From a virus, in the IMG/VR virus record IMGVR_UViG_3300037042_002125, positions 158,079 through 222,078 of that record: a stretch of 64,000 bases of DNA; one strand, 5' to 3'. Each line of letters begins with the position of its first letter. Within the stretch, counting starts at the first letter, position 1. Of the stretch, positions 41,193-62,740 are shown in pieces. Both the position numbers and the translations under genes were made by a program. The notes under the pieces are model-generated. The model was not told where the DNA came from and made no database searches. It saw nothing but the letters and a program-made list of their open reading frames with translations.

Positions 41193-41211
41193 ATATTTCC
41201 TTGTTAACTAG

Positions 41212-41220
41212 TTATTTACA
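41212..41220 (-). promoter_or_regulatory. T4-late-like promoter word TGTAAATAA embedded in a stop codon
   Basis: On the - strand the last codons of the DUF2264 gene, TTG TAA, continue as ATAA to make TGTAAATAA, 19 bases ahead of the next gene start at 41192. Confidence 0.5.
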
Positions 41221-42367
41221 AAATGATGCCTTCACCATACGATGAATCAATAGATACACTTTCACCTGACCATACTTTAGCTTGCGTCCACTTTTGATCT
41301 TCTGAGGACCAAAAGGGATGATCGTCCGATACAGCTAAAGGTAAAAGAAAGAAGCCAGTTGCGTATAGACTAGACGTGCTAACATAAGGTTCAGATAAAC
41401 AGAATGTCTCATACTTTGAATTAAACCCGTTTCTAAGCATCCCATTAGTCTCGAACATATTCTGTTCGAGCCTCTTTAATACTGCAGTCATACCACATCG
41501 GGACTTCCCCAAAAATCCTGACTCATTTATATCTTGGACTTTACTACACCAACGAGATAGGTGGTGAAATGCTCCTAATCTATAAGTAGCAGACCTACCA
41601 ATAACGGGATAAGTACCTTCGGGAGATATAAGGCGCTCTAAGATACGAGAGTACCGTTCTGACCTAAACGGTTGGTTTACTAACAACGCCTGCATTCTAG
41701 GGTCATCGGCGGTAACTTCTTTGATCGTATCTAAAGCAGGGTGGGTTACGATGCTATTGTAGTAATCAGTATGCAAATCAGGACCGTCCCCGTAAATCGA
41801 CCCACCTTTATAAGATGCTAACGTATTAAGGACAGCAAAATCCAGCCTCATAGGATCAAATGCACTTGACGCAAGTTTGTAAGAAAGAACCTCTGGCATT
41901 GCTGCCAGTAACAGCCAATTGTTCGTTAAAGGCCTAATTTTCTTTAGGTACTGGTTGTACACGACAAAGTTTTCAACAGCTATTGTAGTTGAGTATTCGA
42001 GCAGTGACTTGTAACCATAAGACATCGTATCTAAAATGGACCAAGTGAGGTATCCGTAGTCTACTATGTTCTGAGAGCACGGTTTACAGGAAATGTTGTT
42101 TTTACCAGAAAACAAGTTGTTAAACGCCTTAACTGATAGGTCAGCTAAGTCTCTCCTGTCTATCTCAACACTTGACATAGACTCTGGCGCAAATAACCAA
42201 CACCCTAGACTGTAAAGAATTCTAGAGTAAGCCTCTAGGTTTTGACACAGTTGACCGCCGTTAAAGTTACCAGTCCAAGGTATGTGTTTGTCGTCTGCTA
42301 ACAGGCTTAGGCAAGGTTTAGCGTATTTAACAGCAAAAGCTTCCCAGTAATTTCTGTCTCTAGACAT
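41216..42367 (-). CDS. DUF2264-family protein, likely carbohydrate-active
   Basis: 383 residues. Characteristic segments are 'NNWLLLAAMPEVLSYKL', 'IYGDGPDLHTDYYNSIVTHP' and 'EGTYPVIGRSATYRLGAFHHL', which match DUF2264 proteins, an (alpha/alpha)6-barrel family related to glycoside hydrolases or lyases. A phage version could trim or modify capsule or its own glycans. It overlaps the glycosyltransferase by 8 bases. The substrate is unknown. Confidence 0.78.
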   Translation of the reverse strand: MSRDRNYWEAFAVKYAKPCLSLLADDKHIPWTGNFNGGQLCQNLEAYSRILYSLGCWLFAPESMSSVEIDRRDLADLSVKAFNNLFSGKNNISCKPCSQNIVDYGYLTWSILDTMSYGYKSLLEYSTTIAVENFVVYNQYLKKIRPLTNNWLLLAAMPEVLSYKLASSAFDPMRLDFAVLNTLASYKGGSIYGDGPDLHTDYYNSIVTHPALDTIKEVTADDPRMQALLVNQPFRSERYSRILERLISPEGTYPVIGRSATYRLGAFHHLSRWCSKVQDINESGFLGKSRCGMTAVLKRLEQNMFETNGMLRNGFNSKYETFCLSEPYVSTSSLYATGFFLLPLAVSDDHPFWSSEDQKWTQAKVWSGESVSIDSSYGEGIIL

Positions 42368-49428: not shown

Positions 49429-49437
49429 TTATTTACA
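49429..49437 (-). promoter_or_regulatory. T4-late-like promoter word TGTAAATAA embedded in a stop codon
   Basis: The DUF2061 gene ends TTG TAA and continues ATAAC, forming TGTAAATAA on the - strand, 54 bases upstream of the polymerase start at 49374. Confidence 0.5.
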
Positions 49438-49705
49438 ACGTAGATGATTGTTTACCCCAGGTGATTTTGTTCCACACACGCTCATGACACCAGTAGATGA
49501 AAGGCTTAACGACAATCTCAGTGGTGCCAATAGCAAGAGAAACAATAATCTTCCCAGTTACAACGTAGGAGATGATTACGGTTGTAGCTGTCCCACACAT
49601 GCGATAGCTATACGCCTTAACCAAACTCCTAATGCCAGATTCACCGTTACGCAAGTCCCATGTCTTGACGAATCTTTGTAGCAGAGATTGAGTGTGTTGC
49701 GTCAT
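49433..49705 (-). CDS. DUF2061 membrane protein
   Basis: 90 residues from ATG 49705, with AGGAA upstream; it overlaps the kinase gene by 59 bases. 'SLVKAYSYRMCGTATTVIISYVVTG' and 'LAIGTTEIVVKPFIYWCHERVW' give two membrane segments with the conserved YR, TG, HERxW residues of DUF2061. This family is, as I recall, often found beside or fused to adenylylsulfate kinases, which fits its neighbours. It may carry or channel sulfur compounds; function is unproven. Confidence 0.78.
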   Translation of the reverse strand: MTQHTQSLLQRFVKTWDLRNGESGIRSLVKAYSYRMCGTATTVIISYVVTGKIIVSLAIGTTEIVVKPFIYWCHERVWNKITWGKQSSTL

Positions 49706-50498
49706 CGAAAGTTTCCTGGGCAATTGTATAACCAACACCGCGTCCGTACCCAATGTGGGTGATGTTCGGCACAACTTGAATCTCGTACTGACCTTGGTAG
49801 ATAGGGTCAAGGTCACGTCGTATGAAGGCCTTAACTTTCTCAATCTCGAATGGATTGGAACCATTCCAGCCTTGGCAATCACGCACTTGGATCACAACTT
49901 GACCCGTCTTCTGGATCAGACGGTCAAACAATGCACGGTGGCCTTCGTGCCAAGGTTGCCAGCGGCCAAGCATCTGCACAGTTTCCTTCTGCCAGTTGAA
50001 GACAGGACGACGGCGGTTGTTCAGTATATGGTCGCCAATGAACTCCGCCCACTTGTCAGCGTTCTGTTCAGGGACTCGGAAGTCGTATTGCTCAGGTGGC
50101 ACAAACGCTTTGTTGGTGTCCTCATACCGGCCTTGGTCGATTGTATCAACCCAGATCGTCCAGTCGGCTTTGAAGTTGTGGCGCATTTCAGGCAGAGGGG
50201 CTACAAAGTCAGCAATAGCAAAATCACCTGCTGACTTTAGGGCAAACTCCGCCATACGCAGTGATTGACGGATGCGCCCGTCATGCGAGAAGTCCCAATC
50301 ATTGAACCGCTTGCGAATCTCGTCGGCGTTGAACCAATCAACCTTTACACAGTACGGGCCAAGCATCGAGTCAGTTGTCATCGCTCTGGACAGCGACATG
50401 TTGTTGGCAGTGCCGTTGTCCTCAATGTATTTCTTAAGTGCCATTGCAAGTGTTGTCTTGCCGGAGCCTGGAAGCCCCATTACGAGTATTTTTGTCAT
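49647..50498 (-). CDS. Bifunctional APS kinase-like / nucleotidyltransferase protein
   Basis: 283 residues. Domain 1 (1-165) is APS kinase-like: P-loop 'MGLPGSGKTTLAMAL', then 'FNADEIRKRFNDWDFS', 'RIRQSLRMAEFA' and 'ADFVAPLPEMR'. Domain 2 (175-283) is a HxGH nucleotidyltransferase: 'GRWQPWHEGHRALFDRL' and terminal 'HSISATKIR'. APS kinase makes PAPS from adenylylsulfate; the second domain could make the adenylylsulfate or another adenylylated or cytidylylated metabolite, and resembles NadM-type enzymes more than classical sulfurylase. Part of the 14-gene operon. Confidence 0.82.
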   Translation of the reverse strand: MTKILVMGLPGSGKTTLAMALKKYIEDNGTANNMSLSRAMTTDSMLGPYCVKVDWFNADEIRKRFNDWDFSHDGRIRQSLRMAEFALKSAGDFAIADFVAPLPEMRHNFKADWTIWVDTIDQGRYEDTNKAFVPPEQYDFRVPEQNADKWAEFIGDHILNNRRRPVFNWQKETVQMLGRWQPWHEGHRALFDRLIQKTGQVVIQVRDCQGWNGSNPFEIEKVKAFIRRDLDPIYQGQYEIQVVPNITHIGYGRGVGYTIAQETFDDATHSISATKIRQDMGLA

Positions 50499-50516
50499 GT
50501 TGTTACCTTGTTAGTG

Positions 50517-51014
50517 TTAGAAACCAATGTTCTGGTTAATTTTTTTAGCGAATGCCCAATCGTAATGTAGCTCATACTGTAAAGGCTTTTCACGATTTGC
50601 CAAACGCCTAGCTAATTCTTGGGCATGGTACTCTGGGAATACGTTGTCCCATTTGGAAGTTATTCGGATATCAAACTTTGACGGAGGCACAAACAATTTG
50701 TTAGTATCCTCGAACCGACCAGCTTCAATACGGTCAACCCAAATTGTGAATTGGGCATTGAACAATGCTCGCGTTTCCTCGGTAGGACACACAAAGTCGG
50801 CAATGACGTTTGCGCCCCACTTGGCTGCAATGTCACACAGGTGTCCCATGCGTCGCGCTTGCTCAACACGATCAGAAGATGAAAAACCAAGGTCCTTGTT
50901 AATGTTTTTGCGTATATCGTCGGCGTTGAAGTGTACGCACTTTAGATTTTTAGCCAAGGCCTCAGCAAGATAAGTCTTGCCGGACCCTGGTAGTCCCATA
51001 ATTAGGATCTTCAT
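50517..51014 (-). CDS. Adenylylsulfate (APS) kinase-like protein
   Basis: 165 residues, single domain. P-loop 'MGLPGSGKTYLAEALAKNL', 'VHFNADDIRKNINKDLGFS' and 'DRVEQARRMGHLCDIA', 'ADFVCPTEETRAL' follow the CysC pattern closely. It would phosphorylate APS to PAPS, the sulfate donor for the two sulfotransferases in the operon. It is a paralogue of domain 1 of the next gene; the NAD in place of DGD is shared by both. Confidence 0.82.
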   Translation of the reverse strand: MKILIMGLPGSGKTYLAEALAKNLKCVHFNADDIRKNINKDLGFSSSDRVEQARRMGHLCDIAAKWGANVIADFVCPTEETRALFNAQFTIWVDRIEAGRFEDTNKLFVPPSKFDIRITSKWDNVFPEYHAQELARRLANREKPLQYELHYDWAFAKKINQNIGF

Positions 51015-51033
51015 ATTGTTGAACTAGTTGGAG

Positions 51034-51345
51034 TTACTCGGCTTCGAGCATTTCCTTGACGCGGGCGCGCAACGTGTCGTCAGTCCACGTGCCGCGCACG
51101 GCCAAGTACGCATCGCCTTCCCATGCGGTCATGTTGCGAGTAGTCAGTGGTGTAGTCGGGAACGAAACGACGACCTGAACGCTGCTCAGAGGACCGCGCC
51201 CAAAGTTCTCGCGATGCGGCTGATCTGGATTGGGGTTGGGAGGCGTGTAGCCGTAGTTTTCTTGAACGTCAACGAGATCAAATTCAGTGACGACGACGGC
51301 TGCAATTGCTGCGGCCACTACATAGCTTTTCGACAAGGCTGTCAT
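51034..51345 (-). CDS. Small hypothetical protein with hydrophobic N-terminus
   Basis: 103 residues. Residues 5-20 (SKSYVVAAAIAAVVVT) are a short hydrophobic segment that could be a signal peptide or anchor. The middle is proline-rich (YTPPNPNPDQP), and the C-terminus helical. AAGGAC precedes the ATG. No family recognised; it sits between an APS kinase and a sulfotransferase gene. Confidence 0.65.
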   Translation of the reverse strand: MTALSKSYVVAAAIAAVVVTEFDLVDVQENYGYTPPNPNPDQPHRENFGRGPLSSVQVVVSFPTTPLTTRNMTAWEGDAYLAVRGTWTDDTLRARVKEMLEAE

Positions 51346-51354
51346 GGTAAGTCC

Positions 51355-52272
51355 TTAAAGTTGAATGGCCGATTTTGGCCGTTGGGGTTGCGGGATAGAT
51401 TGCGGAGATTGTTTAACAAGTTGTGATTGGGTTGTTGGCTGGACATTGGGTACCCAGTTAAGTTGTGATTTGATTTGATCGAAATTACTCCTCCAAAAAG
51501 ATGCGGATTCATATTGCTGCCAAAGGTCTCCAGGCAGAATACTAACACGTTGCTTGAATTCAACCTTCTTACGAACCGTATGGAGACCTACAATTTTTGT
51601 CTGCTGATCAAACTCATCGTAAGAATCTTCCACGCTATTTAAGTCATGGTTGAACCAAGGCTCGCCTATGAAATTATAAATAGCTTTGAGCACACTTAGG
51701 GGTTCGCATACTAACGTATCGTACTCAATGTACAGAATGTTCTTACGCTCATTGCAGAACAAAGATTGCTTTACGTTAGCCAAAGGACCCGCAACATAAC
51801 CTGGGAAGTTAGGAATCTGTCCCATAAGCATATTGCTACGCTCGTACACGGTACTTAGTTGCTGATGACCGTACAGTGGCTTGATCGTGTATGGATTTTT
51901 AGCATTTAGTTGCTCGAATGAATCGAGAATCCAAGGTATTTCTCGGACGCACACAATCATCTTGAACGTAGGGAACAGATCAGCAAGCAAGGCCGTCTCT
52001 GCGGACCACCCTCGGTTGGTATTGAAACAAACGTCAGTCTTGTTTTCCTTGTAGTAACTATCAAACAGATCACGAATCATCTGCCTGCGTTTATCAATAG
52101 ATACTACAGCCTCCATCCCTGCTGCTGTACCTGTATCCTTGATGATGCTGTTGATGTACATAGCCAGCGGATCACTGATGCCAGTGGAGAACCTTGGGTT
52201 CTGCTTCAAGATCGCGCTGAGCAACGTAGTACCCGATCGAGGCAAGCCAGAAATAAAGTGATATGTCTTCAT
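51355..52272 (-). CDS. Sulfotransferase
   Basis: 305 residues. The 5'-phosphosulfate-binding loop is 'FISGLPRSGTTLLSAIL' at the N-terminus, and the 3'-phosphate-binding segment is 'KMIVCVREIPWILDSFEQL'. These are the PAPS-binding signatures of sulfotransferases. It would move sulfate from PAPS to an unknown acceptor. The C-terminal 50 residues are Gln/Pro-rich. It is coupled to the 29-aa membrane gene by an ATGA overlap. Confidence 0.85.
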   Translation of the reverse strand: MKTYHFISGLPRSGTTLLSAILKQNPRFSTGISDPLAMYINSIIKDTGTAAGMEAVVSIDKRRQMIRDLFDSYYKENKTDVCFNTNRGWSAETALLADLFPTFKMIVCVREIPWILDSFEQLNAKNPYTIKPLYGHQQLSTVYERSNMLMGQIPNFPGYVAGPLANVKQSLFCNERKNILYIEYDTLVCEPLSVLKAIYNFIGEPWFNHDLNSVEDSYDEFDQQTKIVGLHTVRKKVEFKQRVSILPGDLWQQYESASFWRSNFDQIKSQLNWVPNVQPTTQSQLVKQSPQSIPQPQRPKSAIQL

Positions 52273-52358
52273 TTGAAAACTCCAGTGACTACGCCGATAA
52301 TGTAGCCAAGAATGAACGCTACCATCGGGTGCTGTATGACGGCGTGAAGTTTAGCCAT
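52269..52358 (-). CDS. Tiny membrane protein, 29 aa
   Basis: A 29-residue frame starting MAKLHAVIQHPMVAF, with a single hydrophobic helix (about residues 11-27) ending GVFK. It starts inside the last codons of the carbamoyltransferase gene and ends overlapping the sulfotransferase start, a double overlap typical of coupled translation. It may anchor or regulate neighbouring enzymes; this is a guess. Confidence 0.5.
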   Translation of the reverse strand: MAKLHAVIQHPMVAFILGYIIGVVTGVFK

Positions 52359-54063
52359 TAGACTTCACCTTAGTGATAAGCTTGCCAAGGTCAGGCATGT
52401 ATAGGTACTGTATCTCGCTATTGAACAGAGTGACCAGCGCATCATACGTGCTCTCGACCAGCGGTTGGCCGGCCAGATTGAAGCTGGTGTTGAACAGCAT
52501 AGGCATTCCGGTAATTGACTCAAAAGCTTTGATGAGTTTGTAGTACACAGGGTTCTGTTTTTCAGTAACAGTCTGGATGCGGCAGGTACCGTCAACGTGT
52601 GTCACTGCGGGAATAAGATCGGCCTTGTCTTCACGCACCTTCACAGCGTACATCATGAACGGAGACTCTTCGAGGCCGGCCATTTCAAACAGTTGGTCTG
52701 CGTACTCTGCCATAACCGAGCCTGCAAAGGGGCGGAACCACTCGCGGTGCTTGACCGAGTTGATAAACTCTTTACCATTAGGCGCGCGCGGATCAAACAA
52801 GATACTGCGATTGCCCAAAGCGCGTGGACCGCCTTCTGCTTGCCCTTGGAACAAGGCGACGATCTGTTGTTTGGACAATAGGTCTGCTACATCTTCTGCA
52901 GTTGCATCTTCTACCTTGATGTTGCCGTTCTTCTCAGCCACCTGAATGGCCTCGTAGTTAGGAGGGGCGCCAAGATACACTGACGTTAGAGGGCGCACCG
53001 TCAGTTCCTTGCTGTGCTGATACCACGCGTATTGTGCCAGGCCGATCGCCGTGCCGCCGTCATGCGCCATTGGATCAACGTAGAACTCAATGTTAGGGAA
53101 CGCCTTGACGTACTTGTAGTTGGCGACGCAGTTGAGCGCGAACCCACCAGATAGTACGATGTTGGTTTCACCAGTTGTGTCAATCGCCTTCTGGATCAAC
53201 CGCATCACCATTTCTTCGGCTTCATTTTGAACCGCGTAAGCAAGGTTCTTGTCTTGCTCACGAACCAGATTGAAATCGTTGTGCCACTCACGAGGCTCAG
53301 TGTAGCGTTTCAGATATGGGAACCTGTTCTCGTCGATGTGTGCGCCCGCTGGGTACGCAGGGATCAGCAGGTTTTTGTTTCCCTTGCCGTTGACGAAGAA
53401 GGGTGGGATGCTCGTGTCTGGTTTTCCGTACGGGGACAAGCCCATTGTCTTACCAGCTTCAATGAAGCCGAATCCCAGGTACTGGGAGACAGCTTCGTAT
53501 GCCTTGGTAATGGTGACAGAGCTATCAAACTCTTGGATGCCGTTGTCGTAGTAGGTGTTGGTGCCACCGTCGGAGTAGCGTTTGTAGACTGCATTGAACT
53601 CATGTGGGTAACTGCATTGGTAAATTGTCTCGGTCTCGTATCCGGCAACCTCTGGGCCGTTCTCGCTAACACGTTCACGGTGGACCGAACCAGAACCGTC
53701 AACGATGATTGCGGCGGCGGTCTCAAAGCCTGAACCGTAAAAGGCAGCCGCAGCGTGGCCAAGATGGTGTAAGTTCCCCATCACAGATACCTTGATATTC
53801 GGGTTAAATTTACGGGCCAATGCAGAGTACGCATTTTCCCCTGTCCACGGTAAAACAGCTAATTCCGGTGAGGTACCGCCTATAATTAGCTCGTCTACGG
53901 GGTGATTTATGAGGACCTGTAGCATAGCACGAAACGGGTTTCCGTCGTATTTCATGCGACTGACTCGTTCTTCTTCACCATAGAAGGCAAGAACACCGTC
54001 TACGACGAGGGCGGCGCTGCCGTTGTGGCCTGGATTGATTGCCAAAATTGAATACATGGTCAT
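52351..54063 (-). CDS. Carbamoyltransferase, NodU/TobZ type
   Basis: 570 residues. The N-terminal ASKHA-type domain begins 'ILAINPGHNGSAALVVDG', then 'GGFALNCVANYKYVKAFPN' and 'DPMAHDGGTAIGLAQ'; the C-terminal YrdC-like part has 'EGGPRALGNRSILFDPR' and 'REWFRPFAGSVM'. These enzymes form carbamoyl-adenylate from carbamoyl phosphate and ATP and carbamoylate hydroxyl groups, as on Nod factors and antibiotics. A second ATG lies two codons in. It is in the middle of the sulfation operon. Confidence 0.9.
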   Translation of the reverse strand: MTMYSILAINPGHNGSAALVVDGVLAFYGEEERVSRMKYDGNPFRAMLQVLINHPVDELIIGGTSPELAVLPWTGENAYSALARKFNPNIKVSVMGNLHHLGHAAAAFYGSGFETAAAIIVDGSGSVHRERVSENGPEVAGYETETIYQCSYPHEFNAVYKRYSDGGTNTYYDNGIQEFDSSVTITKAYEAVSQYLGFGFIEAGKTMGLSPYGKPDTSIPPFFVNGKGNKNLLIPAYPAGAHIDENRFPYLKRYTEPREWHNDFNLVREQDKNLAYAVQNEAEEMVMRLIQKAIDTTGETNIVLSGGFALNCVANYKYVKAFPNIEFYVDPMAHDGGTAIGLAQYAWYQHSKELTVRPLTSVYLGAPPNYEAIQVAEKNGNIKVEDATAEDVADLLSKQQIVALFQGQAEGGPRALGNRSILFDPRAPNGKEFINSVKHREWFRPFAGSVMAEYADQLFEMAGLEESPFMMYAVKVREDKADLIPAVTHVDGTCRIQTVTEKQNPVYYKLIKAFESITGMPMLFNTSFNLAGQPLVESTYDALVTLFNSEIQYLYMPDLGKLITKVKSNG

Positions 54064-54989
54064 TTCACTTTCTTGTCGACGTCAGCACAGATGGATACGA
54101 AGATTTCGTTGAGGTCCTTCTCGGAGAACCGCATGGTTGACTCATTGAGCCTGTTGGACAACGCTACGTCAAGACCGGCCAGACGGATAGGGCTGTACTT
54201 CTTGACGGTCAGACGATCAATGATATTGAAGTAGTCCGGGTACGACGTATTGATCGGGAACGTAGAGCCAAAGATCACAGAGCCGGGTGTACCGACCGCA
54301 CGAGCAATGTGCTGGCCTACGCTGTCGCAACCAACGAAGTAGTCGGCTTCGGCAATCAACGCACCCCACTGGCGCAGATCGCAAGTGTACTTGGCGGCAA
54401 AGTTGTCGTCCTTGAGTTGGAAGTCAGGCTCGCCGAAGAACACCATGTTGTATCTTTGGGCTAATTTCTTCACCAGCGACAGGTAATCCTTTTGGCTCAA
54501 GCTGCGGGATTCTTCATCGATGATCGCAGTCTTGTCAATCTTGGCGCCTCGACCAAACGGTTGGAAGATCACGGTCCGTTGCTTCTTCTGGATGCCCTTG
54601 AGGTCGTTGAGTGTGCTGGTAGCCACAGCGCGTTCGGTGATGTTGAACACCATCTGCGGTACGCCCAGATCGCTGTGATCCTTGGTCAGATTGATTTCCC
54701 GGTCAAAGCCTTCGACCAGCGAAATCTCCTGACGGAAATATGCGGGGTTGCGATACGGCTCAGGTGTGATGATACGATCCGCGTTCTTCACCACGTTGTC
54801 AAACACGCCCTTGGTGTCCAGGTTATACGCACGATCCTGTAGCTCAGGAATGCCCCAGAACAGAAAGTCCCATGCACCAATGAGCACAGCCCAATCATCA
54901 TTAGGGTTGAGCCGTCCGTACTTGATGAGTGCGGGGATGGCCGCGATCACTCGGCCTGCGCCGCCGTCGATGAAAAATATAGTCTTCAC
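54060..54989 (-). CDS. Family-9-like glycosyltransferase
   Basis: 309 residues, two Rossmann-type halves. 'IFFIDGGAGRVIAAIPALIKY' at the start and 'EADYFVGCDSVGQHIARAVG' followed by 'PGSVIFGSTFP' resemble ADP-heptose:LPS heptosyltransferase (GT9) proteins, where the second motif is D…S…H.A.A…P…lFG.T.P. It would add a sugar from a nucleotide donor. It overlaps the genes on both sides by 4 bases. Confidence 0.75.
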   Translation of the reverse strand: MKTIFFIDGGAGRVIAAIPALIKYGRLNPNDDWAVLIGAWDFLFWGIPELQDRAYNLDTKGVFDNVVKNADRIITPEPYRNPAYFRQEISLVEGFDREINLTKDHSDLGVPQMVFNITERAVATSTLNDLKGIQKKQRTVIFQPFGRGAKIDKTAIIDEESRSLSQKDYLSLVKKLAQRYNMVFFGEPDFQLKDDNFAAKYTCDLRQWGALIAEADYFVGCDSVGQHIARAVGTPGSVIFGSTFPINTSYPDYFNIIDRLTVKKYSPIRLAGLDVALSNRLNESTMRFSEKDLNEIFVSICADVDKKVK

Positions 54990-55717
54990 AGTAGGAGTCT
55001 TTCTTCAGTGGTTGTTGCTATTTCGGAAGTAGTAGGCGCTAAGCCTGTTAGCGAAATGTTCAAGTGTCGCTCGAACAGGATGTCAGTCTGGAGCAACGTG
55101 CCTCGCTCATCGTACGAGGTGCCAAAGATGTCGATTGCTACGTATCCGATTGCCGCCATGTACGCGATGACTTCGGCAAACAGAGGTGCGTCCTTGTTGT
55201 ATTCTGCGATTGAGCACTCCAATAAAATGTACAGAGGCAGCTTATCAAGAATGAATCCGGATGCGCCCTTGAGTATCAGTAGCTCTGCGCCCTGTGCATC
55301 GATTTTGATTAGTCCGTTCGTTGACCACGAGCCGAAGAAGTTGTGCTTGCGGTGCAGGGCGTCCACCGTTGTCATGTGCTTCTTCAGGACTAGCGTAGAC
55401 ATCGGGTTGTAGTGGAACGTCTGCTCAAGGAAGATTGAGCTGCCCGTAGTGTTCTTGTCTTCGCCGAGCGTGTAGAAATTCACGTTGTCTTGCTCACGAT
55501 CACCAAGCAAGGCGATGATCGCTCGGTCAGATAACCACGGCGCCTGGCGTTCGTCAGCTTCGATCTGCCACACTATAGCAGTAGGCCACACGGCTCTGAC
55601 CGTTTCAGTGAACTCACCACGGTAGGCGCCAATGTCAAGCACGTAGTTGATGTGTCTTCCGTGGTTCTTCAACACCGAGAACCTCTGTCTGAATTGTTCA
55701 ATCATTTTCTGTTCCAA
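54986..55717 (-). CDS. FkbM-family methyltransferase
   Basis: 243 residues. 'INYVLDIGAYRGEFTETV' is the SAM-binding motif, and 'GLIKIDAQGAELLILKGA' is the FkbM signature (IDxxGxExxvL.G). FkbM-type enzymes O-methylate sugars. It overlaps the sulfotransferase upstream by 16 bases and the glycosyltransferase downstream by 4. Confidence 0.85.
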   Translation of the reverse strand: MEQKMIEQFRQRFSVLKNHGRHINYVLDIGAYRGEFTETVRAVWPTAIVWQIEADERQAPWLSDRAIIALLGDREQDNVNFYTLGEDKNTTGSSIFLEQTFHYNPMSTLVLKKHMTTVDALHRKHNFFGSWSTNGLIKIDAQGAELLILKGASGFILDKLPLYILLECSIAEYNKDAPLFAEVIAYMAAIGYVAIDIFGTSYDERGTLLQTDILFERHLNISLTGLAPTTSEIATTTEERLLL

Positions 55718-56502
55718 AAGTCGAGCTGCATATCAGTGTAGAGATTGGTCAGTTCGTGTCCGATCACTTTCTCGGGCTCAGGACTTGTCTGAGCCATCGT
55801 CGGGCGCACGTCATGCAGACCTTCGAGACCGCCGTGGTATGAGTCGTTCTCAGGCATTGGCTGTAGCGAATCCAGACGGACTCCGCAGGACTCAATGCCG
55901 ACGAACTGACAGACCTGGTCCATTGTTCCCTGACTGTTATTTACAATGTCCAAATAGCGTAGCACCAGCAGGTCAGCAGCACCTGATTGAAATCCATGAC
56001 GCAGCGCCATGTAGGGCACGTTGATGTAACGCTCCCACAAAATCTTGCATCTGTTCTTGTCGTTGATCGGCAGCCCCTTGTCGATCAGGTCTTGATCCAC
56101 GAACGTAGTCTTGTGAGAGTTCTTGCGTATCAGCAGAATGTAGGACGCCAGCACACTGGGTATGGATCGCACTGTGCAGATGATCTTGGGACGCTCGTGC
56201 AGAACGTCCTTCATCATGTGAGCCTGACGCGGCCAGATGCGGTTCTTGTCAACGATGATAGGCTTGGATACGTGCTCGTAAGCGCCGAACACCAAGCCTC
56301 GCATCATGTTGCTGTACTGGTTTGGGTCTGGATTGACTAACGCTGCCGAGATTTGGGGCCAGTTGTTGTTGAAGATCGTAATCATGTCCACCACTGGTGA
56401 CGTAGTGGAGGCATGAATCATCGGATGTTGATTCAGCAAGGACGCAAGTACCTGTGAGCCAGAGCGTGGAATGCCCGAGAGCATGATAAAAGACTTGTCC
56501 AT
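55702..56502 (-). CDS. Sulfotransferase (second copy)
   Basis: 266 residues. PAPS-binding loop 'IMLSGIPRSGSQVLASLL' and 3'-phosphate site 'KIICTVRSIPSVLASYI'. It shares layout with the gene at 51355-52272 but is diverged, so the two probably act on different acceptors or positions. It starts at the TAATG overlap with the YkgJ-like gene. Confidence 0.85.
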   Translation of the reverse strand: MDKSFIMLSGIPRSGSQVLASLLNQHPMIHASTTSPVVDMITIFNNNWPQISAALVNPDPNQYSNMMRGLVFGAYEHVSKPIIVDKNRIWPRQAHMMKDVLHERPKIICTVRSIPSVLASYILLIRKNSHKTTFVDQDLIDKGLPINDKNRCKILWERYINVPYMALRHGFQSGAADLLVLRYLDIVNNSQGTMDQVCQFVGIESCGVRLDSLQPMPENDSYHGGLEGLHDVRPTMAQTSPEPEKVIGHELTNLYTDMQLDFWNRK

Positions 56503-56987
56503 TACAGTTGTTTCCCGTTCGTTGGGGCCGCAGTTGCTGTAGTACCGCGCATAATCTCAAGGAACTCCTTTGTGCCTAGGAAGTTCCAGCCACCATCAAT
56601 CTCGTACCGCACATTGGCCAAGGCATTTCGTTGGATAGCTTGCACGGCCCAATTCAGTACACGAGCGTCAAGCCGTTGCCCCATTTCCTTTATGGTGACG
56701 AACGATACTCCAGTTCGGGTTGTTTCCAACACTAGCAACGCGTTGACCAGATTAGGCTTCATCCATGCAGGGATAGCGAGCGACCTCAACCATAGACAGC
56801 GGAACGTTTTGCACGGTTGCTCAGGTCGATCTTCATAGATGGTGCAGCCAGTTTCACACACGAAATGGCACTTCGTACCTGGATAGAACTGGTGTCCGTG
56901 CGCTTCGCCGGTCGCCCAACCATCGCAGCAGGCCGTACAGCCACCACAGTTCCTTTCAGCCATTATGTGAATTGTGGCACCTCTCAT
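56502..56987 (-). CDS. YkgJ-like cysteine-cluster protein
   Basis: 161 residues. N-terminal 'NCGGCTACCDGW', then 'GTKCHFVCETGCTIYEDRP' and 'PCKTFRCLWL' form the 8-cysteine cluster typical of YkgJ-family proteins, thought to bind zinc or an Fe-S centre. These genes are frequently found near glycan genes; a direct function is not established. The protein links the second glycosyltransferase and a sulfotransferase by overlaps. Confidence 0.8.
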   Translation of the reverse strand: MRGATIHIMAERNCGGCTACCDGWATGEAHGHQFYPGTKCHFVCETGCTIYEDRPEQPCKTFRCLWLRSLAIPAWMKPNLVNALLVLETTRTGVSFVTIKEMGQRLDARVLNWAVQAIQRNALANVRYEIDGGWNFLGTKEFLEIMRGTTATAAPTNGKQL

Positions 56988-57682
56988 AGCTGCCTCTTCG
57001 TAGTCGGTATGGTAAAGTCAGGACCCTTGAACCATCTGGTAAACTGATGACTAGTTCCTTTAAACTTGTAGGGTCCGATATGGTTGCACACGATGTCAGG
57101 ATCGAGATATATCTGGAAGCCGCCCGTACGTAGCTTGTTGAACGCGTGAATGTCCTCGCTTATGAGGCTACTGTCTTCGATCACAACGTCAAAGATCATG
57201 CGACGCTCTTTGTTGTCCTTGGGATCGATGTAGGGCACACTTGCGTCCCACAAATACTGCATGGCCTTGCGACTCATCTTGACGAAGCCTGTTCCTAGCC
57301 CATCAACTTCGATCAGACCAGTGACGGGGTCCTTGGGACGTCGCTGTACACTGCGAACAACGTACTCCTCAATGTCGCCCTTCTTGCGATACGTGCCACC
57401 AACCACGTCAGCCTCGTGGTCTAGCAGTCGGAAGAACCACTCAGGTTCCCACTCAATGTCGCTGTCAATCCAGATCAGATCGTCAACGCCCGACTCAAGA
57501 GCAACGTGGATTGTGTCGTTACGGGCACGTTGCAGCAGAGCGTCGAAGCTGATCCACATTGGCGTAATATCGACGTCACGTTCCATGCCCATCTTGATCG
57601 TATTGCACAGACTGTTCGTGTACCACACGTCGAGGCGGCCGTCGTAGCACGGCGTTCCTATCATCACTTTTCGTGCGCTCAT
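56984..57682 (-). CDS. GT-A fold glycosyltransferase
   Basis: 232 residues from ATG 57682 (ATGA overlap with the upstream methyltransferase); longer frames are less likely. 'KVMIGTPCYDGRLDVWYTNSL' and 'DDLIWIDSDIEWEPEWF', with the DxD motif, then 'GLGTGFVKMSRKAM' and 'SEDIHAFNKL', match processive phage-type GT-A enzymes. It probably transfers a sugar to a glycan or protein. Confidence 0.8.
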   Translation of the reverse strand: MSARKVMIGTPCYDGRLDVWYTNSLCNTIKMGMERDVDITPMWISFDALLQRARNDTIHVALESGVDDLIWIDSDIEWEPEWFFRLLDHEADVVGGTYRKKGDIEEYVVRSVQRRPKDPVTGLIEVDGLGTGFVKMSRKAMQYLWDASVPYIDPKDNKERRMIFDVVIEDSSLISEDIHAFNKLRTGGFQIYLDPDIVCNHIGPYKFKGTSHQFTRWFKGPDFTIPTTKRQL

Positions 57683-58323
57683 TGCAGTGCCTTTATCAAG
57701 TCTCGAAATTCTAGGAGGACAGTCTGTGCATCGGGCCCGAGATAGTTGTTCATGAACGAACGATATGGTACGGTGTCCGTCCACTCGTACACAATCTCCT
57801 CGTACTCGCGGTCGTGAAAAATGCTGTTGCCAACCAGGTGTTCTAGCATACTCAGTTTAGGCACCACAAGCATATTGCCGTCACGCTCAGTGAATATCCA
57901 GCGATGGTGAATGAAACCCAACCACTTGGCGCTCTCGATCCGCGTAAGTTCTGTGCGGATGCTGGGCGTGGTAATGACGCCGGCCTTGGCAATACGCGGC
58001 AGTAGCTCCAACGTAGTGAACGGGTTGTAGAGGTCTTCGAGAGTGTGAGTGCAGATCGCGTAGTCGAAGCGTCCGTGACGTTCCACATACTCAAGCATGG
58101 TGTTCCACGCCTCACGGTCGCAGACATCAATTCTCACGCCACTAGGTGACGTCACTGCATTGATGTCAATCACGAGGTCAGTGATAGACGCAGACCAGCC
58201 TCCGCCATGAGTACCGCCGACGTCAATGACAGAGTATCCCGGCGTCTGTTGTTTGGTGTTCCCTACGTCGTGTAGGATACGCGCACGGGTATGCAGCGTC
58301 CTACCGTATTTGATTGTGAGCAT
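57679..58323 (-). CDS. SAM-dependent methyltransferase
   Basis: 214 residues from ATG 58323. 'YSVIDVGGTHGGGWSASITDLVI' has the SAM-binding G-rich loop, 'RIDVCDREAWN' motif II, and 'FDYAICTHTLEDLYNP' the motif after the catalytic core, as in class I methyltransferases (Methyltransf_11/25 type). It lies immediately after the GT4 gene and would decorate a sugar or acceptor. The exact substrate is unknown. Confidence 0.78.
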   Translation of the reverse strand: MLTIKYGRTLHTRARILHDVGNTKQQTPGYSVIDVGGTHGGGWSASITDLVIDINAVTSPSGVRIDVCDREAWNTMLEYVERHGRFDYAICTHTLEDLYNPFTTLELLPRIAKAGVITTPSIRTELTRIESAKWLGFIHHRWIFTERDGNMLVVPKLSMLEHLVGNSIFHDREYEEIVYEWTDTVPYRSFMNNYLGPDAQTVLLEFRDLIKALQ

Positions 58324-58325
58324 AT

Positions 58326-59270
58326 TCAAGCCTGCAGTAGTGAGTTGAAGAACTGACGCCACTCGCCAATGCGATGTTCCCAACTGTAGCGACTGTTGAA
58401 CCAGGCCGACTGTGCACGCCATTGTGAGTCGGGTAGCCACGTGTACTCGTCGATAGCGTCTGCAAGCACCTTGGCGTACCGCTCGACTAGTCCGCTGCGC
58501 TCACTATTGACATACGTGGCGTGAGGTCCGCACGTCTCAGGCAACGCACCAAGACCTGTAGTGACTATGTGGCAACCAGCAGCGCCAGCCTCAATCGCGG
58601 ACAAGCAGCTAGTCTCCTCGAACGTACTTGGGTACGCCAGAATGTGAGCCCGTTGCACCGCTACGCGAACGGCTTTGTTGGTGACGTATCCTCTGTAATT
58701 TACACCTGGAGCAGTCCGACATTTGGCAAGGACGTCCTTGTTTTTCTGACCTTCGCCACTAGCGTAACCCGCACCATAGATGATGTTGGATGAGTACACG
58801 TCAAGAACCACATTGCGGCCAGGCTTCACAATCTCGTATGCGTCAAGCAGAATGTCAAGACCCCGATCTGGCATGGAGGTATAGATGAGCCGAATCTGAC
58901 CGTCCGGCTTTGGCACGAACGGTATTGGGTCAATTGCGTTTCTGATTACGGTGTTTTGAACGTGCTCGATGTTGTACAGTTCACGGAATTGGGCAAGCTG
59001 CCATTCACTGACGTAAACAAAGGACGATACTTGGCTGACGAACTCAGCGTCGCGCATTCCATAGGTTGCGGGCTGGTCAGTCATCAAGTGCTGCCACACT
59101 ACGTTGAGCCTTTGGGACTCAAGTAGCTGTGGAGCGCAGATGCTAAGGATCAAGTTGACCCGGCTTAGAATAGCGGGCCAATTTGGTCCTAGGTACCGCA
59201 AGAGGGAGGTGTACAGAAGTTCTGATCCGCCTTTTGGCGTTATTGATATTGGTGTCATGGTCTGTACCAT
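58326..59270 (-). CDS. Family-4-like glycosyltransferase
   Basis: About 314 residues from ATG 59270; an in-frame GTG at 59300 falls in a terminator. 'IRLIYTSMPDRGLDILLDAYEIV' and 'AHILAYPSTFEETSCLSAIEAGAAG' with the ExxxxxxxE pattern mark the GT4 GT-B fold. First gene of the operon, with a TGTAAATAA word and a terminator just upstream. It should be the first transferase made. Confidence 0.82.
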   Translation of the reverse strand: MVQTMTPISITPKGGSELLYTSLLRYLGPNWPAILSRVNLILSICAPQLLESQRLNVVWQHLMTDQPATYGMRDAEFVSQVSSFVYVSEWQLAQFRELYNIEHVQNTVIRNAIDPIPFVPKPDGQIRLIYTSMPDRGLDILLDAYEIVKPGRNVVLDVYSSNIIYGAGYASGEGQKNKDVLAKCRTAPGVNYRGYVTNKAVRVAVQRAHILAYPSTFEETSCLSAIEAGAAGCHIVTTGLGALPETCGPHATYVNSERSGLVERYAKVLADAIDEYTWLPDSQWRAQSAWFNSRYSWEHRIGEWRQFFNSLLQA

Positions 59271-59285
59271 TGGTGGAGAACGAAA

Positions 59286-59307
59286 AAGGAGTGTACGCAC
59301 ACTCCTT
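59286..59307 (-). terminator. Terminator after the giant fibre gene, overlapping a promoter word
   Basis: A 9-bp stem (59286-59294 with 59299-59307), tetraloop 59295-59298, followed on the - strand by TTTTTC. It sits 26 bases after the fibre stop (59334), and its distal arm shares bases with the TGTAAATAA word at 59306-59314. Confidence 0.85.
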
Positions 59308-59314
59308 ATTTACA
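59306..59314 (-). promoter_or_regulatory. T4-late-like promoter word TGTAAATAA for the 14-gene operon
   Basis: On the - strand TGTAAATAA lies 36 bases ahead of the likely GT4 start at 59270 and overlaps the terminator of the fibre gene. Confidence 0.5.
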
Positions 59315-59333: not shown

Positions 59334-62300
59334 TCACGCTCCTTCTAGCACACGCACGCGTTCTGTGAGCGCCTCTACGCTGGTAGTCAAAGCGTCATTC
59401 TTTTCTGCCAGTTCCTGAATGGCTTTCACCATCACTGGCAAGAGCTTACCAGGTGCTGCTTCGTATCTTGATTCGTCCTCGTTGGAGATCACAAGTTCAA
59501 GCCAGTCACGGACCTGATGGTAATCCATCGCTTGCTTGAGTTCCTGGGCAATAAATCCAGCGTACCCCTGACCAACTTTTGATCCGTCACGCATATTCCA
59601 TGTGAATTTCACTGGACGGATTTGCCGAATGAAATCAAGACCTAGTGGAATGTCCTGAATGTCTTTCTTGTCACGGGCATCAGATAGTGCAGTGATACTG
59701 GTTACCTGAGCACGGATGGTTGCTATGCTTGCGTTACCAAGAGTAATAGTATTAGAGCAAGCCGCTGCTAATGCCTGTGAGTTAAATCCTATTAGGATAT
59801 TATTTGATCCCCCGTTAACGGTGTATCCGGAACAGCAACCAATAGCTATGTTATTGCTGCCGGTGGTGTTGCCGTAGAGCGCCAAGTACCCTTGGGCGGT
59901 GTTATTACTGCCGGTGGTGTTGGAGTAGAGCGCCTGTTGTCCCTGGGCGAAGTTATTACTGCCGGTGGTATTGTAGAAGAGCGCCTGTTGTCCCTGGGCG
60001 AAGTTATTATTGCCAGTAGTGTTGAATATGAGCGCCAAGTACCCCGAGGCGATGTTATTACTGCCGGTGTTGGAGTAGAGCGCCTGTTGTCCCTGGGCGA
60101 AGTTATTATTGCCGGTGGTGTTGGAGGTGAGCGCCAAGTACCCTTGGGCGAAGTTATTACAACCGGTGGTATTGGAGCTGAGCGCCAAGTACCCTTGGGC
60201 GAAGTTATTGTTGCCGGTGGTGTTGAAGTAGAGCGCCTGGTATCCTATTGCGGTGTTATTACTGCCGGTGGTGTTGCCGTAGAGCGCATGGTTTCCTTGG
60301 GCGAAGTTATTACTGCCGTAGGTGTTGCTGTAAAGTGCAGCTTGTCCCTGGGCGGTGTTATTACTGCCGGTGGTGTTGGAGGTGAGCGCCTGGTATCCTA
60401 TTGCGGTGTTATTACTGCCGGTGGTGTTGGAGTAGAGCGCCTGTTGTCCCTGGGCGAAGTTATTATTGCCGGTGGTGTTGTTGCTATAGAGTGCCTTGTA
60501 TCCCTGGGCGAAGTTATTACAACCGGTGGTGTTACCGTAGAGCGCCCAGTACCCTTGGGCGAAGTTATTACGGCCGGTGGTGTTGGAGGTGAGCGCCAAG
60601 TACCCTTGGGCGAAGTTATTACCGCCGGTGGTGTTGCAGTAGAGCGCCTGTTGTCCCTGGGCGAAGTTATTATTGCCGGTGGTGTTGCTGCTATAGAGTG
60701 CCTTGTATCCCTGGGCGAAGTTATTACTGCCGGTGGTGTTGCCGTAGAGCGCCAAGTATCCTATGGCGGTGTTATTATTACCGTAGGTATTTGAGTAGAG
60801 CGCCGAGTATCCTATGGCGGTGTTATTACGGCCGGTGGTGTTGCAGTAGAGCGCCCTGCATCCTTGGGCGGTGTTATCATTACCAGTAGTATTGCCGTAG
60901 AGCGCCCTGTATCCTATGGCGGTGTTATTACAACCGGTGGTATTGGAGCGGAGCGCCTGTGGTCCCTGGGCGAAGTTATTACTGCCGGTGGTGTTGCTGT
61001 AAAGTGCCCCGCATCCTTGGGCGGTGTTATGGCTGCCGGTGGTGTTACCGTAGAGTGCCTTGTATCCTTGGGCGAAGTTATTACTGCCGGTGGTGTTCTT
61101 GCGGAGCGCCAGTGGTCCTATGGCGGTGTTATTATTACCGGTGGTGTTGCATTGGAGCGCCTTGCATCCTTGGGCGGTGTTACTACAACCGGTGGTATTG
61201 TAGAAGAGCGCCTGGTATCCTTGGGCGAAGTTATTACAACCGGTGGTGTTACCGTAGAGCGCCTGATATCCTTGGGCGAAGTTATTGTTGCCGTAGGTGT
61301 TGAAGTAGAGCGCCTTACTTCCCTGGGCGGTGTTATTACAACCGGTGGTATTGGAGCGGAGCGCCGAGTATCCTTGGGCGAAGTTAGTACTGCCGGTGGT
61401 GTTGGAGCGGAGCGCCGAGTATCCTTGGGCGAAGTTATTACAGCCAGAGGTGTTGCCGTAGAGCGCCCTGCATCCTATGGCGGTGTTATGGTTGCCGGTG
61501 GTGCTGTAAAGTGCCCCGTATCCTTGGGCGAAGTTACCACAGCCGGTGGTGTTCTTACATAGAGCACCGATACCAACTGCAAAGTTATTAGCGCCCGTAG
61601 TATTACTAGCCAATGCGCCAGTCCCGATACCAAGGTTGTTGTAAGTCGGGGTTAGTGAGGCGCCGCCTACCGAAGCGCCATTGACTGTTAATGCTCCGGC
61701 ACCAGTTACCTGTAGGCAGTTAGTACCTGCTTTAAGGTAGATAGTGTTAACCAGACCGGCAGTCCCTACATAAGAGCCTATGATAGTGTTGTCAACACCT
61801 GTGGTTATGCTCTTACCAGCATCAGCACCAATAGCGATGTTGTTACCTGCATTGTTCGATGCGTATAGGGCACAGCAACCGATACCAATGTTGTTGGAAC
61901 CAGTAGTATTGCTGTATAGTGCCTTGTATCCTTGGGCGGTGTTATTATTACCGGTGGTGTTGCATTGGAGCGCCTTGCATCCTTGGGCGGTGTTATTACT
62001 GCCGGTGGTGTTGGAGAGGAGCGCCAAGTATCCTATTGCGGTGTTATTACAACCGGTGGTGTTACCGTAGAGCGCCCTGTATCCTTGGGCGAAGTTATTA
62101 CAGCCAGTAGTGTTGAATAAGAGCGCCTTGCATCCTATGGCGGTGTTATTACTGCCGGTGGTGTTACCGTAGAGCGCCTTGCATCCTTGGGCGGTGTTAT
62201 TATTGCCGGTGGTGTTCTTGTAGAGCGCCTTACTTCCCTGGGCGGTGTTATTATTGCCGGTGGTGTTGCCGTAGAGCGCCTTGCATCCTTGGGCGGTGTT

Positions 62301-62720
62301 ATTATTGCCGGTGGTGTTGCCGTAGAGCGCCTGTTGTCCTATGGCGGTGTTATTACAACCGGTGGTGTTGGAGTAGAGCACCAAGTCTCCTATGGCGGTG
62401 TTATTACTGCCGTAGGTGTTCTTGTAGAGCGCCCAGTAGCCTTGGGCGAAGTTATTACAGCCAGAGGTGTTGCCGTAGAGCGCCGAGTGTCCTTGGGCGA
62501 AGTTACCACAGCCGGTGGTGTTCTTACATAGAGCACCGATACCAACTGCAAAGTTATTCGTGCCAGTAGTGTTACTAGCCAGTGAACCAGTGCCAATTGC
62601 CATGTTGTTGGTTCCGGTGCTAGTTGTCAAGCCAGCACCTACACCAAGGGCCAATTCACCACGTGCGTTCGCATTTGTATCAGGGATGATTGTACATCCA
62701 TTTATCTTGATAGCCATCAT
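59334..62720 (-). CDS. Giant repeat-built tail fibre with S74 chaperone
   Basis: About 1128 residues from ATG 62720 (AAAGGA upstream). About 50 copies of a 17-residue unit, ALYGNTTGNNNTAQGCK and variants, build two beta-roll modules separated by a linker ('LTVNGASVGGASLTPTYNN'); the first repeats of both modules are near-identical. The S74 region follows: 'LSDARDKKDIQDIPLGLDF', 'IRPVKFTWNMRDGSKVG', 'GFIAQELKQA', ending in a coiled coil 'TERVRVLEGA'. S74 chaperones trimerise and self-cleave. Variable residues cluster at fixed repeat positions (after TTG and after QG). Confidence 0.88.
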   Translation of the reverse strand: MMAIKINGCTIIPDTNANARGELALGVGAGLTTSTGTNNMAIGTGSLASNTTGTNNFAVGIGALCKNTTGCGNFAQGHSALYGNTSGCNNFAQGYWALYKNTYGSNNTAIGDLVLYSNTTGCNNTAIGQQALYGNTTGNNNTAQGCKALYGNTTGNNNTAQGSKALYKNTTGNNNTAQGCKALYGNTTGSNNTAIGCKALLFNTTGCNNFAQGYRALYGNTTGCNNTAIGYLALLSNTTGSNNTAQGCKALQCNTTGNNNTAQGYKALYSNTTGSNNIGIGCCALYASNNAGNNIAIGADAGKSITTGVDNTIIGSYVGTAGLVNTIYLKAGTNCLQVTGAGALTVNGASVGGASLTPTYNNLGIGTGALASNTTGANNFAVGIGALCKNTTGCGNFAQGYGALYSTTGNHNTAIGCRALYGNTSGCNNFAQGYSALRSNTTGSTNFAQGYSALRSNTTGCNNTAQGSKALYFNTYGNNNFAQGYQALYGNTTGCNNFAQGYQALFYNTTGCSNTAQGCKALQCNTTGNNNTAIGPLALRKNTTGSNNFAQGYKALYGNTTGSHNTAQGCGALYSNTTGSNNFAQGPQALRSNTTGCNNTAIGYRALYGNTTGNDNTAQGCRALYCNTTGRNNTAIGYSALYSNTYGNNNTAIGYLALYGNTTGSNNFAQGYKALYSSNTTGNNNFAQGQQALYCNTTGGNNFAQGYLALTSNTTGRNNFAQGYWALYGNTTGCNNFAQGYKALYSNNTTGNNNFAQGQQALYSNTTGSNNTAIGYQALTSNTTGSNNTAQGQAALYSNTYGSNNFAQGNHALYGNTTGSNNTAIGYQALYFNTTGNNNFAQGYLALSSNTTGCNNFAQGYLALTSNTTGNNNFAQGQQALYSNTGSNNIASGYLALIFNTTGNNNFAQGQQALFYNTTGSNNFAQGQQALYSNTTGSNNTAQGYLALYGNTTGSNNIAIGCCSGYTVNGGSNNILIGFNSQALAAACSNTITLGNASIATIRAQVTSITALSDARDKKDIQDIPLGLDFIRQIRPVKFTWNMRDGSKVGQGYAGFIAQELKQAMDYHQVRDWLELVISNEDESRYEAAPGKLLPVMVKAIQELAEKNDALTTSVEALTERVRVLEGA
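59849..62560 (-). repeat. Long array of 51-bp repeats encoding the fibre shaft
   Basis: About 50 tandem 51-base units encode the 17-residue shaft repeat; a few units lack or gain a residue or two (for example ALYSTTG and ALYSSNTTG). Two modules begin with the same stretch (around 61545-61620 and 62510-62590). Confidence 0.85.
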
Positions 62721-62740
62721 CGTTCCTTTCAAGAACTCGG

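Follow-up and report, generated by a model that had tools for sequence, protein, structure and literature searches.

The window analysed here, a stretch of 64,000 nucleotides, is the right end of the linear IMG/VR virus record IMGVR_UViG_3300037042_002125 (222,078 bases, of which the window covers positions 158,079 to 222,078). Its minus strand carries, from 59300 to 49433, an operon of genes for glycosyl-, methyl-, carbamoyl- and sulfotransferases together with two proteins resembling adenosine 5'-phosphosulfate (APS) kinase. One of these, termed KNT, joins an APS-kinase domain to a nucleotidyltransferase (NT) domain and, judged from its sequence, likely acts as a compact, non-orthologous synthetase of 3'-phosphoadenosine 5'-phosphosulfate (PAPS) that feeds the sulfotransferases. 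All 14 open reading frames (ORFs) are open, with zero internal stops. Families were assigned with Pfam, NCBIfam and PHROGs profiles. The genes are listed below in the order of transcription, headed by the fibre gene that precedes the operon; identities marked L016 refer to the homologue in a related viral contig of that label.

59334..62732, minus strand: repeat fibre, 1132 aa, with a C-terminal S74 chaperone (Peptidase_S74, E 1e-11); conserved 5' neighbour of the operon and possible acceptor
58326..59300, minus strand: GT4-type glycosyltransferase, 324 aa, first gene after the fibre (Glyco_trans_1_4, E 5e-10; Glycos_transf_1, E 1e-8; L016 50%)
57679..58323, minus strand: MT1, probable S-adenosylmethionine-dependent methyltransferase, 214 aa from the ATG at 58323 (weak Methyltransf_23 match, E 0.004, below cut-off; L016 48%)
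56984..57682, minus strand: GT2/Anp1-like glycosyltransferase, 232 aa (weak Anp1 and Glycos_transf_2 matches, below cut-off; L016 76%)
56502..56987, minus strand: cysteine-cluster protein, 161 aa, the cluster being visible in the sequence (phrog_9155, function unknown, E 6e-35; L016 60%)
55702..56502, minus strand: sulfotransferase ST1, 266 aa (Sulfotransfer_3, E 1e-11, above cut-off; PRSG loop and invariant R..S pair)
54986..55705, minus strand: FkbM-type methyltransferase, 239 aa (Methyltransf_21, E 1e-10, above cut-off)
54060..54989, minus strand: GT9-type glycosyltransferase, 309 aa (Glyco_transf_9, E 2e-6, above cut-off; L016 74%)
52351..54063, minus strand: NodU/TobZ-type O-carbamoyltransferase, 570 aa (Carbam_trans_C, E 5e-61; Carbam_trans_N, E 4e-22; phrog_1601, E 5e-157)
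52269..52358, minus strand: 29-aa ORF, probably not a gene
51355..52272, minus strand: sulfotransferase ST2, 305 aa (Sulfotransfer_3, E 6e-14; R110 and S118 invariant in 23 sequences; L016 71%)
51034..51345, minus strand: conserved 103-aa protein (no Pfam, PHROG or NCBIfam match; L016 73%, and 53-56% in contigs L060 and L084, near KNT)
50517..51014, minus strand: CysC, standalone APS-kinase-like protein, 165 aa (APS_kinase, E 3e-15, above cut-off)
49647..50498, minus strand: KNT, 283 aa, APS-kinase domain (about residues 1-160) and NMN adenylyltransferase (NMNAT)-like HxGH nucleotidyltransferase (about 160-283); proposed compact PAPS synthetase
49433..49705, minus strand: DUF2061 small membrane protein, 90 aa, overlapping the 3' end of KNT (DUF2061, E 5e-16)

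Most neighbouring genes either overlap by 4 nt (ATGA or GTGA) or are separated by no more than 19 nt (2 nt between the GT4 and MT1 genes), and the DUF2061 gene overlaps KNT by 59 nt. The original prediction described a coupled operon of fourteen genes. Thirteen of these ORFs are real, tightly coupled and kept in other viral contigs, whereas the 29-aa ORF is probably not a gene because it is absent from relatives; in L016 and L029 the carbamoyltransferase and ST2 genes abut directly. Contigs L016 and L020 carry nearly the whole operon with its gene order preserved and a fibre homologue ahead of it (48-84% identity), missing the separate CysC and the 29-aa ORF, and shorter or rearranged versions occur in L029, L060, L084, L098, L188, L189, L192-L201, L203 and L206. 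Since the gene order is kept in other contigs, the operon is beyond chance. Compared with L016, the proportion of nonsynonymous differences (pN) in the operon genes is low (0.11-0.27) and that of synonymous differences (pS) is saturated or nearly so, and these genes are therefore under strong purifying selection. GC content is higher in the operon and fibre gene (0.51-0.52) than in the window's first 50 kb (0.445), with third-position GC staying at the lower level in the ST2, CysC and DUF2061 genes. This pattern suggests a mosaic, imported module. By its tail sheath gene, whose product is 44-46% identical to that of the jumbo myoviruses BcepSauron and BcepSaruman (Burkholderia) and Motura (Achromobacter), the virus is nearer to these than to cyanophages. 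Named cyanophages (S-CAM1, P-SSM2, S-SKS1, S-SRM01) encode the same families, their carbamoyltransferase being about 38-46% and their sulfotransferase 27-29% identical.

Profile matches confirm the GT4, FkbM and GT9 proteins, both domains of the carbamoyltransferase (each above cut-off), two Sulfotransfer_3 and two APS_kinase proteins, and DUF2061. A single operon combines PAPS supply with sulfation, carbamoylation, methylation and glycosylation at the level of families, as had been proposed. The earlier count of three glycosyltransferases and two methyltransferases holds by profile for GT4, GT9 and FkbM, while MT1 and the GT2-like protein have only weak matches; the latter also matches phrog_1574 (E 1e-20) and phrog_34859, a glycosyltransferase (E 4e-5). 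The closest relatives of the carbamoyltransferase in the Protein Data Bank (PDB) are novobiocin carbamoyltransferase (E 5e-57) and TobZ (E 2e-54).

The kinase domain of KNT matches Pfam APS_kinase above cut-off, and the top 35 Foldseek matches of the KNT model are all APS kinases; CysC matches Mycobacterium tuberculosis CysC (E 1e-9) and human PAPSS1 (E 4e-9) in the PDB. Sequence and alignments contain the APS-kinase motifs, namely the P-loop, NAD/DGD..R and DLGFSxxDR.E..RRM, and divergent KNT copies retain an APS-kinase-like stretch such as NADEIRKEINKDLKFSxEDRxEQARRMG. The PHROGs label for KNT is merely 'kinase', and a literature search of partial coverage found no description of the protein. 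KNT is phage-specific and abundant; among cultured phages, Stenotrophomonas phages DLP6 and Suzuki carry it. It occurs in at least 597 IMG/VR stretches (the best 80 at 72-85% identity), and a distant query returned 139. Among 84,980 bacterial and archaeal species, with one genome each, relatives were found on two metagenome-assembled contigs only, in a scan by short exact peptide patterns that distant bacterial relatives could escape. The record holds a further copy of KNT, 79% identical, towards its opposite end (10202-11056); it is close to large tail-fibre genes and has no sulfotransferase beside it.

The earlier description of two APS kinase-like proteins, one of them fused to an HxGH nucleotidyltransferase, is right as to the fusion. 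The HxGH half is not recognisable as an ATP sulfurylase, being nearest to NMNAT by sequence (E 3e-10). Its fold matches in the PDB mix NMNAT, phosphopantetheine adenylyltransferase (PPAT) and ATP sulfurylase without separating them (best E 0.012, not significant); its model confidence (predicted local distance difference test, pLDDT) was low in the full KNT model (69) and 84.7 when the half was refolded with a deeper alignment. Sixty divergent KNT copies conserve GR.QP.H.GH, an arginine in the RD region, NP/PN, GR.VGY and IS.T..R. Canonical ATP sulfurylase (PF01747) has no match in the record itself, and 29 related or sulfotransferase-bearing records gave zero matches to ATP sulfurylase. Because of this absence, sulfate activation by the NT half is the simplest reading. 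We infer such a role from gene association together with the lack of the canonical enzyme.

Both sulfotransferases score well above the Sulfotransfer_3 cut-off of 27 bits (ST1 45.9, ST2 53.3). Across 23 phage sulfotransferases, P11, R12 and G14 of the PRSG loop as well as R110, S118, Y184 and H231 are invariant (ST2 numbering), so that the PAPS-binding signature is present with its 5'-loop PRSGxT and 3'-phosphate R..S pair; human SULTs have the same eight-residue R-to-S spacing. The concern that sulfotransferase and kinase residues might prove inactive is not borne out by sequence, since both the residues that bind PAPS and the motifs of APS kinase are preserved. The closest solved structures to the phage sulfotransferase profile are the tyrosylprotein sulfotransferases TPST1/2 (E 2e-19). 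Tyrosine sulfation was considered on this ground and found too weak to adopt.

KNT is statistically linked to several sulfotransferase families. Loci around KNT were fetched blind to sulfotransferases, as a close set (n = 82) and a distant set (n = 80), and family-specific hidden Markov models were used since PF13469 alone misses the divergent ST_C family. Within 8 genes of KNT, a sulfotransferase is found in 48 of the 82 close loci and in 33 of the 80 distant ones; of the loci lacking one, 12 of 34 in the close set end short upstream, and 11 in the distant set are cut off. As a control we took 79 loci anchored on an unrelated neck-type structural gene. Here a sulfotransferase is present in 8 of 10 KNT-bearing and 0 of 69 KNT-less loci (Fisher 1.7e-9, not corrected for relatedness). 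Because test and control sets hold close relatives, the claim of association rests on the number of backgrounds and families and not on this P value: joining loci that share at least two neighbour genes leaves 35 gene-order backgrounds, of which 13 have a sulfotransferase (2 of the 13 by motif only). The calls near KNT in L087, L315 and L316 are by motif only. Among the families near KNT are Sulfotransfer_3, a tetratricopeptide repeat (TPR)-fused Sulfotransfer_3, Sulfotransfer_2, a Stf0-like group that stays below cut-off, and a divergent one marked by the motifs GAPGSKWSS and VRIIKSH. When sulfotransferases served as the anchor instead, either KNT or the kinase half alone was present in 50 of 80 loci, in many cases immediately after the sulfotransferase. 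In L199, the NT and kinase halves are separate, overlapping genes of the same operon.

Two of these families deserve description. Proteins of about 208 aa (GAPGSKWSS...VRIIKSH...ACLGWW), encoded upstream of KNT and missed by Pfam (L085:8657-9283, also L031, L042, L052 and L074), are probably an undescribed sulfotransferase family. Others of about 590 aa combine a sulfotransferase with a TPR-containing C-terminal half (L061:5430-7202 and similar) and are often encoded between RCC1-like repeat genes on viral contigs.

DUF2061 follows KNT in 21 of 82 close and 26 of 80 distant loci (47 of 162 together), as against 0 of the 69 KNT-less control loci. In the nod region of the Mesorhizobium huakuii symbiosis plasmid (L106:4020-8260), genes for a sulfotransferase, DUF2061, CysD and CysN stand in this order beside nodBCI, which suggests a role of DUF2061 in sulfate activation. 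The link is partial, because the DUF2061 genes on Haloterrigena, Bradyrhizobium, Phaeobacter and Halobellus plasmids are not near sulfate genes.

Taken together, we consider it probable that the operon is a phage module for sulfation and glycan decoration. KNT and CysC would make PAPS during infection: APS would form from sulfate by adenylylation on the NMNAT-like half, and the kinase half would phosphorylate it to PAPS, the coupling pulling the unfavourable first step forward, with DUF2061 assisting, perhaps as a membrane partner. With this PAPS, ST1 and ST2 would sulfate a short glycan that the three glycosyltransferases assemble, the same glycan being O-carbamoylated by the NodU-type enzyme and methylated by FkbM and MT1. 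Its most likely acceptor would be the repeat fibre encoded directly upstream, followed by a host surface glycan precursor. The sulfation reading is well supported. Several observations weigh against the proposal as a whole. The NT half is closer to NMNAT than to ATP sulfurylase in sequence as well as in fold ranking; both kinases fall short of the NCBIfam apsK equivalog TIGR00455 (cut-off 138.7 bits; CysC 53.9, KNT 22.8); in about half of the KNT loci a sulfotransferase cannot be recognised in the vicinity, records as long as 80-166 kb included; and a compositional test of fibre genes near sulfotransferases gave only 57% versus 43%. A more far-reaching version, which we put forward only tentatively, is that KNT represents a PAPS synthetase class of its own, new and confined to phages, whose ATP sulfurylase step is carried out by a domain derived from NMNAT, and that hundreds of phages sulfate their own virion glycans or fibres through several unrelated sulfotransferase families.

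The alternative that survives best retains the chemistry and changes the acceptor. The infecting phage would modify lipopolysaccharide or another surface glycan precursor of the host, for instance to prevent superinfection or re-adsorption, a possibility we take seriously while doubting it. GT9 is a heptosyltransferase family, carbamoyltransferases are common in cyanophages (142 phage records), and sulfated bacterial capsules exist (PMC11641403). The operon genes include no initiating transferase, flippase or polymerase, however, and the operon is repeatedly located behind a fibre gene: it starts 33 nt behind one with about 30 NTTG-type repeats, and a fibre homologue lies upstream in most relatives with enough flank. 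A virion-fibre glycan is slightly likelier than a host surface glycan because of this conserved repeat-fibre gene just upstream.

Rather unlikely is a division of labour in which the KNT kinase half makes PAPS from host APS and the NT half acts otherwise, for instance by adenylylating another phosphorylated compound. The NMNAT-like character of the NT half would fit, as would the many sulfotransferase operons that have a standalone kinase only. Yet the two halves remain fused or adjacent beside sulfotransferases of several families, and no other adenylyl-acceptor pathway was seen to recur near KNT.

KNT resembles the NadR/NMNAT family in that its NT half has GRxQPxHxGH and IS.T..R motifs. It could accordingly be read as a NadR-like NAD salvage enzyme (riboside kinase and NMNAT), possibly countering a NAD-depleting defence; the NT half best matches NMNAT, and NAPRTase/NadV is found in 3 of 27 KNT records. 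We regard this as improbable. The kinase half belongs to a different family than that of NadR, being APS-kinase-like and not a riboside kinase, as the Foldseek ranking also indicates; in all three NadV records NadV adjoins a separate NMNAT-like protein of 342-372 aa; and the recurrent neighbours of KNT are sulfotransferases. The domain order of NadR is also the reverse of that in KNT.

Hypermodified bases, which the original prediction had left as a possible acceptor, are disfavoured, and we find it even harder to believe that the operon decorates a hydroxymethylpyrimidine in DNA with sugars, carbamoyl or sulfate. Such phage systems have been put forward on computational grounds (Iyer et al. 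2013, cited by PMC10829341), and a PolA gene lies just downstream of the operon. The relatives inspected do not show PolA next to the operon, and in the record itself there is no ThyA-family hydroxymethylase (PF00303; the positive control matched) and no Tet/JBP match (PF12851; the positive control was silent), its thymidylate synthase looking ThyX-like by sequence. Least credible of all, the kinases might be auxiliary metabolic genes for host assimilatory sulfate reduction, as viral cysC has been catalogued without validation (PMC12713726), and one marginal, partial PAPS_reduct match (PF01507, record 108076-108201) would agree, but 12 of 13 records lack any PAPS_reduct match that passes the cut-off, none of the 29 has ATP sulfurylase, and the kinases stand directly behind sulfotransferases.

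The preferred reading, a PAPS-fed sulfation module, has several known counterparts. Like the bifunctional PAPS synthetases (animal PAPSS1/2 and bacterial fusions of sulfate adenylyltransferase, SAT, with APS kinase), KNT unites an APS kinase and an HxGH-superfamily adenylyltransferase in one polypeptide and is linked to PAPS-using sulfotransferases; animal PAPSS has the kinase domain first, as does KNT. It differs in its compact NT domain of about 120 aa, nearest to NMNAT and PPAT, the record having no PF01747 domain. KNT would therefore work like a PAPS synthetase while standing outside that class, whose ATP sulfurylase domain has no homologue in it. With the decoration of rhizobial Nod factors (NodPQ, NodH/NoeE, NodU, NodS) the operon shares a sulfate donor route, sulfotransferase, carbamoyltransferase and methyltransferase acting on a glycan. 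The comparison, drawn in the original prediction, is an analogy of chemistry and not of membership: the phage proteins score far short of the equivalog cut-offs for NodU and NoeE (140.6 bits for the carbamoyltransferase against a NodU cut-off of 1000), and neither a NodABC chitooligosaccharide core nor CysDN/NodPQ appears among the operon annotations, though no search was aimed at them. Cyanophage S-SRM01 likewise has a sulfotransferase among glycan genes, whereas three sulfotransferase-bearing cyanophages that were checked have neither KNT nor ATP sulfurylase.

A virus that brings both the sulfate donor route and the transferases is less unusual than had been supposed. Giant viruses (Moumouvirus australiensis, Cotonvirus) place sulfate activation and a sulfotransferase within glycosylation clusters that are thought to decorate virion fibrils (PMC10117803). 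These are viruses of eukaryotes with a canonical SAT/APS kinase of 624-655 aa, and the passages considered name no carbamoyltransferase, which the phage operon has. The overall idea thus has precedent, and it is the KNT enzyme that may be a new class. Phage sulfotransferases (PMC10580990) and viral cysC (PMC12713726) have been noted separately, the function of the former being called unclear and the latter being filed under sulfate assimilation. The association with KNT offers one testable account for both, a phage supply of PAPS. If the NMNAT-like half does activate sulfate, evolution would have arrived at APS by one more route, and KNT would be a PAPS synthetase in a single small protein; this would also point to sulfation of virion or host glycans as a widespread phage trait that bears on adsorption, superinfection and defence.

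We note some minor features of the record. A hairpin of 9 pairs (window 59286-59307), followed by T-rich sequence, encloses the GT4 start codon just behind the fibre gene and is possibly a terminator or attenuator; hairpins near the same junction of fibre and operon also occur in L189, L192 and L193. Elsewhere (record 97561-112653; L009:2561-17653), a plus-strand cluster of about 20 genes encodes two radical SAM proteins, an epimerase, a weak PIG-L deacetylase match and a GT1 glycosyltransferase. A 435-aa protein of this cluster appeared TGT/DpdA-like by eye; it has no PF01702 match, and a 7-deazaguanine reading is unsupported. Within the window, a DUF2264 protein and a UDP-glucose/GDP-mannose dehydrogenase-like protein are encoded amid replication genes (40293-42367).

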